Source of the DNA: Bradyrhizobium sp. SZCCHNS1050
Lineage (GTDB): Bacteria; Pseudomonadota; Alphaproteobacteria; Rhizobiales; Xanthobacteraceae
Length of the DNA stretch: 64,000 nt
NCBI RefSeq assembly: GCF_032484785.1
Contig: NZ_JAUETR010000004.1
Span: forward strand, 124,001 to 188,000
Direction: 5' to 3'
Shown: positions 3,805 through 56,412 of the stretch, in pieces
Layout: every line of letters starts with the position of its first letter
How positions within the stretch are numbered: position 1 is the first letter of the stretch
Position numbers and translations under genes: made by a program
The notes under the pieces: model-generated
Seen by the model: only the letters and a program-made list of their open reading frames with translations
Told to the model about the DNA's origin: nothing
Databases searched by the model: none

Positions 3805-4205
3805 CACATCCCACCTCGCCAAGAGGGGCGCATCGCGATCGTCACGAGCGTGAGGTGGGCTGCGGTGGGCGTGTCGGGTTGCAGCGTGGCTTGTCCGCGC
3901 CGACGAACGATCCGGTGCGCACGGTCAAGCCGTGTGGTCCTGGCCTCCCGATGCTGAGGCCAAGCGGGCGCTGCGACGAAGCGCGCTCGCGACGGGGGCA
4001 AGAACGCCGGTCCCCGGGGAGAGCGCGGAGTAAGCCGTAAAGCCATCGCGCAGGGAGGGCCGGATGTCCGGCTCGTACCTGTGGTTCTGCCGCGTGCTTT
4101 CTTTCTGCACGCGGACCATGGGTGCGACCTGCACCCGGCCTTCCCTGCGCCCTCTGTTCTCGAAGAGGGTTTTCAATGGCACAGCTCGGGCGCGGAGGCG
4201 CGGCG
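3805..4205. repeat. ~400-bp structured dispersed repeat, copy 1
   Basis: This segment aligns along its length with 55995-56412, with variable stretches between conserved blocks. Identical blocks include CATCGCGATCGTCAC (copy 2 begins TATCGCG), the hairpin CTGGCCTCCCGATGCTGAGG, and GGTCCCCGGGGAGAG. The core at 4048-4150 folds: GCGCAGGGAGGGCCGG (4048-4063) pairs with CCGGCCTTCCCTGCGC (4135-4150), enclosing hairpins at 4090-4114 (CCGCGTGC/GCACGCGG) and 4120-4136 (GGGTGC/GCACCC). No plausible protein is encoded. The rest of this 3542-4420 gap holds the palindrome at 4251-4346; in 3542-3804 I see nothing. Confidence 0.75.
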
Positions 4206-4250
4206 AGGATGGGATCTCATGTGTGCTGAAGCAGGCTGCCCAGAGCTCAC

Positions 4251-4346
4251 CGTCATTCCGGGGCGCCCGGAGGGCGAGCCCGGAATCCATAACCACGATC
4301 GGGAGTATGGATTCCGGGCTCGCGCTATGCGCGCCCCGGAATGACG
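4251..4346. repeat. 96-bp near-perfect palindromic repeat
   Basis: The termini CGTCATTCCGGGGCGC and GCGCCCCGGAATGACG are exact reverse complements. Inside, GAGCCCGGAATCCATA pairs with TATGGATTCCGGGCTC around a short AT-richer centre (ACCACGATCGGGAG). This belongs to the CGTCATTCCGGGGCGC class of dispersed palindromes I recall from Bradyrhizobium and Rhodopseudomonas. It lies 46 bp after the structured repeat and 75 bp from the end of pleD. Confidence 0.85.
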
Positions 4347-42128: not shown

Positions 42129-43121
42129 CTATTCGTTGTTGGCGGCCGGCTCGGCGGCCTCAGGCGCCGCTTGAGGCGCCGCAGCGGCCGGCTTCGGCTT
42201 CGGCGCGGCCTTCTTGGCCGCCGGCGGCGCCTGGGCGTGGCTGGCAGCCACGGTCGGTGGGGCTGCGGGCGGCGCAAGCTGCGTCGGCGGTTTCGGCGCG
42301 GCGGCTGCCGGGGCGACCGAGCGCGTCGAGGCCGTCGGCTCGGGATTCATGATGCTGACCGGCGGGGTGTTCGCCGAGCTGGGAAATTCGGCGGTCGTCG
42401 GCTTGCCGTTCGGCGCCGACGGCGCCAGCCCTGGAGGCGCCAATCCCGCAAAGGTCCCAGCGGCCGGTTGGCCCGGCGCCGCATTCCACTGCGAGGCGTA
42501 GCGCGTCACCAGCCCCTCATAGGTCCGCCCTTCCATGTTGTTCATCAGTTGCTGGCGATCACCCACGGCACGGAACATCACGCAATCGCTCGGCGTGCAG
42601 CGGTCGCGTGTCAGCAGCACATAGGCCATCAGGCCATAACGATCGCGCTCGACGGCGCGGCGCAGCGCCAGCAGCTCCGCGGTCATCACCTTGTTGGCGC
42701 TGGCGACGTCGCCCACCTGGGACAGCCGGCTCAGCATGCCCGCCGCATAACTGACGGCCGCGGCGGTCATCTCGGCCGATCCGAACAGGCTCTTCTCGCA
42801 ATTCGCGAGCACCAGATCGCCGGCGAGATCATCCACGCAGGCCAGGGCGGGTGCCGAGAGGCCGACGGAGGCGGTCACCGCAGGATCGCCATTGGCGCCA
42901 CGCGGGGTCGCATCCTGGCTCCGCATCATCGACGCCACCGCAATCCCGACCGCCAGCAGCGTGATCACCGTCAGCGCGCCGTTGGCGACCGATTTCTCGG
43001 CCCTGAGCAGCGTCATCAGCACGACCAGTGCAAAGAAACCCGCCGCGGCAACGGTGAGCCACATCGGGAACGCCGGTGAGTTCAAGAGCTGATCCAACGA
43101 GGAAGGCCAGGTCGAGTTCAT
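42129..43121 (-). CDS. Hypothetical membrane protein with Ala/Pro-rich tail
   Basis: A 330-residue protein. Two N-terminal transmembrane helices (LTVAAAGFFALVVLMTLLRA and ANGALTVITLLAVGIAVASM) precede an exported-looking domain with cysteines in ACVDDLAGDLVLANCEKSLF and RDRCTPSDCVMF. That domain contains QQLMNNMEGRTYEGLVTRYA. The last ~120 residues are Ala/Pro/Lys-rich and disordered. I recognise it as a conserved Bradyrhizobium-type hypothetical but know no function. Four cysteines in the folded part may form disulfides. Confidence 0.7.
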   Translation of the reverse strand: MNSTWPSSLDQLLNSPAFPMWLTVAAAGFFALVVLMTLLRAEKSVANGALTVITLLAVGIAVASMMRSQDATPRGANGDPAVTASVGLSAPALACVDDLAGDLVLANCEKSLFGSAEMTAAAVSYAAGMLSRLSQVGDVASANKVMTAELLALRRAVERDRYGLMAYVLLTRDRCTPSDCVMFRAVGDRQQLMNNMEGRTYEGLVTRYASQWNAAPGQPAAGTFAGLAPPGLAPSAPNGKPTTAEFPSSANTPPVSIMNPEPTASTRSVAPAAAAPKPPTQLAPPAAPPTVAASHAQAPPAAKKAAPKPKPAAAAPQAAPEAAEPAANNE

Positions 43122-55790: not shown

Positions 55791-55994
55791 CATCCGATGG
55801 ACGACTGTCTCAAGCCCAAGTCCCGACCCGACGGGCGACTCGGCCCTTGCCTCCCCACGCCCTGGGCCCCCAATCATGGGCCAAGGTCGATGCGCGGAGA
55901 TTCTCATTTCACGAGACGCCTCAAGCACATCACCCCTGTCCAGTCCGTCCGGCGAAAATATTCCGCTTTCTCATTTTCAGAAATCATGATTGAG

Positions 55995-56412
55995 TGCAGC
56001 CGTCCCGCCTCGGCACGAGGGGCGTATCGCGATCGTCACGGCACGCGGGGTGGGATGCGGTGGGCGCGGCGGTTCGCAGCATGACGAAGGTCATGCGGAC
56101 GAACGAAGCCGTTGCGCCGGCGAAATCGTAGGGTCCTGGCCTCCCGATGCTGAGGCCAAGCTCGCGACAACGCGTTCGCGTTGCGCGGGTGACGGGGGCA
56201 AGACAGCCGGTCCCCGGGGAGAGGACGTATAAGCCGGAAAACCATCGCGCGGGGAATGCCGGGATGTCTCGGCTGAACCTGTGGTTCCTGCCGCCTGCAT
56301 TCTTGTTCGCAGGCGGGCCATGGGTGCGGCCAGCACCCGGCATTCCCCGCGCCCTCGTCGTCGAGAGGGCGAAACGACCGGCACAGCTCGGGCGCCCTGC
56401 GCGCCGCGAGGC
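55995..56412. repeat. ~400-bp structured dispersed repeat, copy 2
   Basis: Homologous along its length to 3805-4205. In the core, GCGCGGGGAATGCCGGG (56247-56263) pairs perfectly with CCCGGCATTCCCCGCGC (56336-56352). Enclosed hairpins are CCGCCTGC/GCAGGCGG (56291-56316) and GGGTGC/GCACCC (56322-56338). Several pairs differ from copy 1 on both sides at once. It ends 74 bp before the end of the histidine kinase gene. The two copies are in the same orientation. Confidence 0.75.

Follow-up and report, generated by a model that had tools for sequence, protein, structure and literature searches.

A candidate family of about 110 structured RNA genes with polar spacing in the genome of a Bradyrhizobium strain

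Dispersed intergenic repeats that fold into stem-loops have been described in Bradyrhizobium as Br-REP1 and Br-REP2, palindromes of 20-40 nt (PMC5082802), and, going by the available part of that paper, they are the nearest printed item to the repeat considered here, which is likewise dispersed, intergenic and rich in stem-loops and belongs to the same genus. Large and elaborately folded bacterial noncoding RNAs are represented by GOLLD, ROOL and OLE (PMC12286853, PMC10898510, in the accessible portions of these sources), and the element reported below resembles them in size and in elaborateness of folding. BjrC68 (RF02353), a small RNA of the Bradyrhizobiaceae, was considered and rejected, its likeness being limited to a weak sub-threshold overlap with our copy 2 (11.9 bits against a gathering threshold of 39, E=2.8), which is at chance level. 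The ~410-nt RNA of Bradyrhizobium and relatives is apparently unnamed, and no description of the RNA or of the repeat was found in the titles and opening parts of abstracts of the literature searched, PMC5082802 and PMC4842269 included.

The window, i.e., the whole 64,000-nt stretch of DNA that was analysed, gave 0 matches to Rfam 15 at gathering thresholds and 0 tRNA or tmRNA genes with ARAGORN. Copy 2 searched against Rfam at E up to 5 returned four sub-threshold rows, the best of which was MIR1437 with 31.1 of 168 bits. Identity with REP or BIME elements was rejected, since these are palindromes of 20-40 bp and the conserved unit here averages 412 nt. The fewest mismatches to the consensus sequences, as given in the available part of PMC5082802, in any of 108 elements of the genome were 7/20 for Br-REP1 and 7/20 and 5/18 for the halves of Br-REP2. 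The two copies present in the window consist of the following parts:

3808..4207, plus strand: RNA element of copy 1, 400 nt, from the expected +1 to the terminal hairpin, placed by the 108-copy own-genome alignment; covariance-model match of 224 bits
56002..56410, plus strand: RNA element of copy 2, 409 nt, placed by the 108-copy own-genome alignment; covariance-model match of 247 bits
3772..3800, plus strand: promoter-like block of copy 1, TTTCGC, 17 bp, TATCCC, from the column profile of 108 copies
55967..55995, plus strand: promoter-like block of copy 2, TTTCTC, 17 bp, TTGAGT, from the column profile of 108 copies
4048..4063, plus strand: 5' arm of the core stem of copy 1, partner 4135-4150, helix 6 of the 54-pair model
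4135..4150, plus strand: 3' arm of the core stem of copy 1, partner 4048-4063
56247..56263, plus strand: 5' arm of the core stem of copy 2, partner 56336-56352
56336..56352, plus strand: 3' arm of the core stem of copy 2, partner 56247-56263
4090..4114, plus strand: enclosed hairpin of copy 1, CCGCGTGC (from 4090)/GCACGCGG (from 4107), helix 7 of the 54-pair model
56291..56316, plus strand: enclosed hairpin of copy 2, CCGCCTGC (from 56291)/GCAGGCGG (from 56309), helix 7 of the 54-pair model
4120..4136, plus strand: third hairpin of copy 1, GGGTGC/GCACCC, covarying columns 316-321 with 327-332
56322..56338, plus strand: third hairpin of copy 2, GGGTGC/GCACCC, covarying columns 316-321 with 327-332
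3942..3961, plus strand: hairpin GGCCTC/GAGGCC of copy 1, which contains the column pair with the strongest covariation in the family
56138..56157, plus strand: hairpin GGCCTC/GAGGCC of copy 2, covariation in 108 copies, letters checked
4185..4207, plus strand: terminal hairpin of copy 1, RNAalifold helix 414-421 with 431-439, letters checked
56387..56410, plus strand: terminal hairpin of copy 2, RNAalifold helix 414-421 with 431-439, letters checked

A sequence-only reading of this DNA had described the core of the repeat and had argued from paired changes between the two copies that its folding is under selection. The core stem indeed comprises 16 pairs in copy 1 (4048-4063/4135-4150) and 17 in copy 2 (56247-56263/56336-56352), exactly as that reading had it; pair 5 is A-T in copy 1 and G-C in copy 2, pair 11 is G-C and T-A, and pair 10 is G-T and A-T. 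The enclosed hairpin differs between the copies in the way it had claimed, and the third hairpin stands in both of them (from 4120 and 56322). Three double changes in two copies are insufficient alone, and the proof comes from further copies. The earlier description covered the core only; the conserved unit is much longer and has further helices, and to it belong a promoter signature and a rule of placement across the genome. The CCC at 56336-56338 of copy 2 belongs both to the third hairpin and to the end of the 17-bp stem, which creates competing pairs, and CC at 4135-4136 of copy 1 is claimed by the same two helices. A scan of the window for uninterrupted stems of 16 or more pairs, G-T included, with a span of 76-126 nt gave five matches at four places. 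Two of the places are the present copies, and another such stem lies at 42134-42229. Just 3' of copy 1 there is a long inverted repeat (4251-4346), unrelated to the ~410-nt RNA, with 3/18 mismatches to half of the printed Br-REP2 consensus.

Strong covariation, found in 30 as well as in 108 copies of the same genome, supports the proposed selection on folding. RNAalifold on 30 copies, which are the best matches to copy 2 and hence a related subset, gave 112 pairs, 44 of them with at least one double change; its helix joining columns 289-303 with 336-350 was replaced in the model by the third hairpin, because the covariation of 108 copies supports the latter. The 54-pair model was paired to 96.0% on these 30 copies compared with 85.5% in shuffles, and 29 of its pairs were doubly changed compared with 16.3, with 0 of 500 shuffles as high on either count; doubly changed cells numbered 164 versus 53.8 in shuffles, and pairing fell to 41-47% when the partner was shifted by 1-3 columns. 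On five measures the structure exceeded all 500 shuffles, and it exceeded every slid control. The third hairpin is only 76% paired in the 30-copy model because its register varies.

The 108-copy alignment contains all of the 109 matches except one truncated at a contig end and amounts to 102 effective sequences at 90% identity. Of its 25 strongest covarying column pairs, 13 coincide exactly with helix positions and 17 do so to within one column, the random expectation for exact matches being 0.02. The strongest covarying columns, 137/150, read AT in 64, CG in 24 and GC in 20 of the 108 copies, and the third hairpin (columns 316-332) is among the helices with strongly covarying columns. Columns 15/351 covary as well, with 5' GAGGG and 3' CCCTC forming a possible closing helix, and columns 29, 30, 77 and 100 covary unpaired and may reflect a tertiary contact. 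Variation is nearly equal in paired and unpaired columns (0.29 versus 0.32). A list of 70 pairs drawn from the 108 copies is used below; it is not the full structure, helices P2 and P12 being out of register and mostly lost to its 70% filter. Thus, as expected of a structured RNA, a conserved secondary structure is supported by covariation, in statistics computed without a phylogeny-aware null, and the core with its enclosed hairpin recurs in another genus with different letters. A local hairpin, GCCGG/CCGGC (columns 140-145 and 151-156 in alignment A2), makes use of the 5' arm of the core stem and could compete with that stem as a possible switch; most of the hairpin pairs either do not vary or are wobbles, and 4/30 copies have one pair broken.

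The strand on which the structure is maintained can be read from the mismatched pairs. Over the 70 pairs in 108 copies the sense strand carries 841 G-U against 78 A-C, a ratio somewhat inflated by the list, which required 70% standard pairs with G-U counted, and over the 34 covarying pairs it carries 415 against 20. G-U lies far above A-C, which points to the sense transcript as what folds and is selected; a constraint on DNA hairpins would tolerate G-U and A-C alike. We conclude from these comparisons that selection acts on the sense transcript. No conserved reading frame was found, the median longest ORF being 85 aa compared with 76 aa in shuffled copies and the lengths being spread over three frames. 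Folding is better than in shuffles on both strands (z of -5.87 sense and -4.57 antisense).

Upstream of the structure, the columns of the 108 copies contain promoter-like blocks consisting of a -35 TT(G/T)CG, 17 bp and a weaker, TG-extended -10; the expected -1 is C, and the expected +1 is a purine that coincides with the first column of the structure. A sigma70-like promoter signature is common to the copies, and its putative +1 falls on the base with which the structure starts. In L014, L020, L025, L190, L191 and L195 the 5' side carries another block instead (GCCCGTCG...CGTCGGGCAAATCA), possibly a second promoter class. The copies are mostly intergenic, with median distances to genes of 300 and 266 bp, and 13/108 overlap an ORF call of a simple gene caller. 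There was no clear preference for the orientation of genes beside the 108 copies (classes of 31, 29, 23 and 23, plus 2 without a right neighbour), nor for co-orientation of adjoining genes with the copy (52/101 upstream, 45/105 downstream).

The family comprises approximately 110 copies in the own genome (7.62 Mb, six contigs), two contigs of which start within a copy. A DNA search with copy 2 found at least 40 matches of 74-100% identity. Covariance model R1, built on the 3' 241 nt of the element, gave at least 107 matches at 175 bits or more, at least 109 at 124 bits or more and at least 17 weaker sense-strand matches of 69-113 bits; these counts are lower bounds, because 150 of 6739 candidates were scored, and weak relics below these 150 would escape. 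Beside the 107 strong matches only about 12 interrupted or partial copies were seen. Across the genus, R1 was present in 56/60 genomes at E<=1e-4 under stricter filters, with no more than 35 candidates scored per genome, and the number of matches per genome ranged from 0 to at least 35, all of those scored. The four genomes without a match under these stricter filters (G303, G325, G328 and G342) form a natural comparison set and indicate that the RNA is not universally required. R1 was further found in 77/198 genomes and 18/47 genera of the family. In an order-wide draw it was present in 11/297 genomes, nine of them of this genus (own included), one of another genus of the family and one of another family. 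A conserved 29-base pattern occurred at no fewer than 80 loci of a named collection, which among the matches listed were all Bradyrhizobium records or MAGs; they include BTAi1, STM 3843, STM 3809, B. aeschynomenes and others, as well as five MAGs, one labelled only alphaproteobacterium. The plasmid and phage collections, searched in distant mode at 1e-5, contained no match to the element. As far as searched, the element is thus nearly confined to one bacterial family.

Copies of the own genome share a mean pairwise identity of 70% and a maximum of 95.6%, and most of them are structurally intact. All 12 pairs of the core stem are present in 105 of 108 copies, 11 in two and 8 in one; the last is L103 (C1:471341), in which the 3' arm is partly lost. 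With deletions set aside, the worst copy keeps 86% of the 70 pairs and the median is 96%; with deletions counted as breaks, the worst still keeps 80%, the median is 94% and 4/108 copies fall under 85%, so that copies with most stems broken, which would have spoken against selection on folding, did not turn up. L195 and L199 agree at 97.5% over a block of 365 nt that begins 12 nt ahead of the element and runs to position ~352, and their promoters and 3' ends are unlike, hence this patch looks like gene conversion of the body. The closest pairs have the body in common and the far flanks little or not at all, and because the common blocks end at different points the element seems to have no fixed boundary. 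Beside pleD, where loci from 30 of 59 matching genomes were fetched (own included), a copy was found in 1/29 other loci of the genus, at a different distance and 69% identical, no closer in sequence than paralogs (70%), which indicates that copy positions turn over while most copies stay intact. The flanks at pleD are too diverged to align filled with empty sites for a target-site duplication. The histidine-kinase gene beside copy 2 was rejected as an orthology marker, being kept in only 8/60 genus genomes (E<=1e-100, own included). No consistent inverted arms were found at the ends of 30 copies set to one orientation, and the terminal inverted repeats and fixed ends that characterise MITEs and insertion sequences were absent.

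Sixteen of the 17 weaker R1 matches form eight pairs approximately 1.5 kb apart. Three of these loci were fetched and one, L087, was read: at L087:1353-2762 (C2:573209-574884) a transposase gene of 469 aa lies inside the core palindrome of the repeat, so that the repeat serves an insertion sequence as a target. The HTH_38 domain of this transposase passes the curated cut-off and rve, with 24.8 bits, stays below its cut-off of 32.6; by domain make-up we take the insert to belong to the IS30 family.

Copies are spaced along the chromosome in a polar manner. Gaps in the own genome are more even than random (CV of 0.63 versus 0.98 +/- 0.11 in C1, 0/5000; 0.65 in C2, P=0.02), and their length depends on orientation: convergent neighbours (n=25) have a median gap of 29 kb, and divergent neighbours (n=24) a median of 77 kb and a minimum of 36 kb (two-sided permutation P=0.0015). 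These values refer to the first 109 matches of at least 124 bits; addition of 10 interrupted or partial copies (119) left the picture unchanged. Eight further genomes, out of 18 single-contig genomes of the genus and with lengths rounded, were compared; G311, G315, G320 and G348 were chosen for at least 35 R1 matches, as found in six genomes, and antisense echoes of the symmetric core were left out (1/56 in G216, 5/25 in G194, 8/45 in G253, 1/18 in G035). Pooled, these genomes contain 375 copies with scaled median gaps of 0.47 for 81 convergent, 0.76 for 213 same-strand and 1.21 for 81 divergent neighbours (Mann-Whitney P=4.5e-10). Taken singly, the difference between convergent and divergent gaps is significant in G216, G348, G311 and G320 and not in G194, G253, G035 and G315; overall spacing was no more regular than expected at random in G194, G253, G035, G320 and G315.

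When positions were held fixed and strands permuted in the nine pooled genomes, divergent pairs closer than 50 kb numbered 7 versus 27.7 +/- 4.4 expected and convergent pairs 55 versus 28.3 +/- 4.2 (0/400 permutations each), and same-strand pairs were not clearly depleted (49 versus 55.0 +/- 5.2). By distance, few same-strand pairs lie within 20 kb of each other (9 observed, 43.0 expected), no divergent pairs occur within 30 kb and few out to ~70 kb, and convergent pairs show no depletion to 20 kb (52 observed, 44.4 expected). In the pair correlation, copies are excluded from the promoter side, and no such effect is seen downstream for copies on the opposite strand. Duplication of neighbours as a source of convergent pairs was rejected, similarity being flat over convergent (0.697), divergent (0.707) and same-strand (0.712) neighbours. 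A partner repeat at the far end of the upstream territory was sought in 20-kb stretches, 20 on the upstream and 20 on the downstream side, from 20 of 50 eligible copies taken at random, and gave no clear excess (21 versus 17 bins).

Orientation follows replication in some of these genomes. At the best axis, co-orientation amounts to 66/89 in G348, 31/37 in G253, 41/55 in G216 and 53/79 in G320. The tendency is clear in the first three and weak in the last (P=0.04); GC skew was used to verify the origin in G348 alone, where it agrees with an origin near 0. The best-axis bias was not significant in G194, G035, G311 and G315, and the own genome displayed no replication polarity, oriented flank GC skew being above 0 in 45/108 copies (P=0.28).

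The two flanks of a copy also differ in composition. The upstream 2.35 kb are AT-richer than the downstream in 82/107 own copies (0.638 versus 0.665, P=1.3e-10) and less coding (0.61 versus 0.80, P=3e-10), and GC3 of the nearest gene is lower upstream (0.857 versus 0.892, 100 pairs), the last two by a home-made gene caller; GC1 and GC2 of the nearest genes did not differ between the sides. The AT asymmetry is repeated in other genomes (upstream AT-richer in 23 of 35 loci, P=0.0035; 37 tried, 2 too short) and in named records (58 upstream versus 53 downstream stretches, P=6.4e-5). Over 20 kb it is weak or absent: total GC differs at P=0.048 only, and GC3 of 20 copies gave no difference (P=0.09, opposite sign).

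The account that we regard as fairly probable is that of a ~410-nt structured noncoding RNA gene family, ~110 copies in number, with strong transcription, action in trans and a constraint from upstream supercoiling. Comparative evidence argues strongly for the folded RNA gene family, and promoter conservation together with the G-U bias suggests that it is transcribed. Each copy would be transcribed strongly from its own predicted promoter, and the folded RNA would work in trans, as a structural RNA that is required at high dosage. With less confidence, transcription may leave ~25 kb of negatively supercoiled DNA behind each gene, and copies within such a stretch of another copy may be selected against. 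Upstream supercoiling would explain why divergent copies stand far apart, same-strand copies at intermediate distances and convergent copies freely, and it would also explain co-orientation with replication in some genomes. For E. coli rRNA operons, the available part of PMC9071471 reports an upstream negative supercoiling domain of 23.1 +/- 1.8 kb and positive supercoiling reaching ~25 kb downstream. The upstream value agrees with the range of the spacing effect described above. The downstream effect should penalise convergent pairs too, and no such depletion is observed here, which counts against the supercoiling account; the coding and GC difference of the upstream flank, predicted by an insertion model too, likewise counts against our explanation. 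It is possible, if doubtful, that a transcribed folded RNA gene at ~100 sites obeys a polar territory rule, with ~25-35 kb upstream of each copy that do not overlap, and thereby delimits oriented chromosome domains.

Several other explanations were weighed. That the repeat is a selfish, non-autonomous mobile element, whose fold serves its own spread with no gain for the host, appears somewhat unlikely to us; it could move by an RNA- or single-stranded-DNA-templated route or through a helper protein encoded elsewhere, and insertion at replication forks would give the orientation bias seen in some genomes. The turnover of positions at pleD, where the single other copy is no closer than paralogs, match numbers from 0 to at least 35 across 60 genomes against ~110 here, and closest pairs that share the body and little or none of the far flanks would all suit such an element. 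Few copies are decayed, however (~12 interrupted or partial copies beside at least 107 that reach 175 bits, with the core stem whole in 105/108), the termini of 30 copies carry no consistent inverted arms, the ends of common blocks vary without a fixed boundary, plasmids and phages lack a match, and polar spacing is not predicted. Structure at the DNA level, as a cruciform or as single-stranded hairpins of the REP or attC type, is highly improbable; the inverted repeats are perfect and both strands fold better than shuffles, as it would require, but on the sense strand G-U pairs are far more numerous than A-C pairs and the structure begins where the promoter signature places the start.

Polar spacing and flank composition bear on two further explanations. 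The repeat could be an integration platform just upstream of which foreign DNA is repeatedly inserted, pushing that side apart and leaving gene-poor, AT-rich flanks, with spacing as a by-product. We consider this unlikely: it agrees with the upstream 2.35 kb being AT-richer (82/107), less coding and lower in nearest-gene GC3, and with the recurrence of the AT asymmetry in 35 loci of other genomes and in named records, but GC3 over 20 kb does not differ and total GC does so at P=0.048 only, GC1 and GC2 of nearest genes are alike, an upstream partner repeat was not found in the 20 stretches of 20 kb, and tens of kb would have to be inserted at nearly every copy. A cis-acting element of chromosome architecture, for which the transcribed site and not the RNA product matters, is quite unlikely. 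Each copy would anchor or bound a domain of ~25-35 kb on its upstream side only, the domains would not overlap and convergent pairs would be borders, which matches an exclusion that is polar and near additive (none for convergent, ~20-30 kb for same-strand and ~50-70 kb for divergent pairs) and that recurs in the scaled gaps of the eight other genomes pooled; yet a DNA site or a transcription barrier needs no elaborate strand-specific RNA covariation, and the wide variation of copy number within the genus would be odd for an architectural need.

If the folded RNA gene family is expressed, ~45 kb (109 copies of ~412 nt) and a hundred promoters would be devoted to one structured RNA. The polar spacing in nine pooled genomes further offers a test, first by sequence and then at the bench, of a long-standing placement question, namely whether strongly transcribed genes constrain each other over tens of kb via supercoiling or domain formation.

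Multi-copy ribosomal RNA operons are kept alike by gene conversion and point in the direction of replication. The present family may be likened to them as multi-copy genes of a structural RNA, their upstream range being ~23 kb in the available part of PMC9071471; no sequence relation was found between the two, and the RNA described here is a predicted one. Unlike GOLLD, ROOL and OLE, as these are presented in the accessible portions of the sources cited above, the element is dispersed, occurs in up to ~110 paralogs per genome and has no Rfam match at the gathering threshold. REP elements are hit by insertion sequences (PMC1525189, PMC2817692, in their available parts) and thus provide a parallel of repeated hairpins serving as targets, as with the transposase insert in the present repeat; compared with them, the element is approximately ten times longer, carries a predicted promoter and displays strand-specific RNA covariation.
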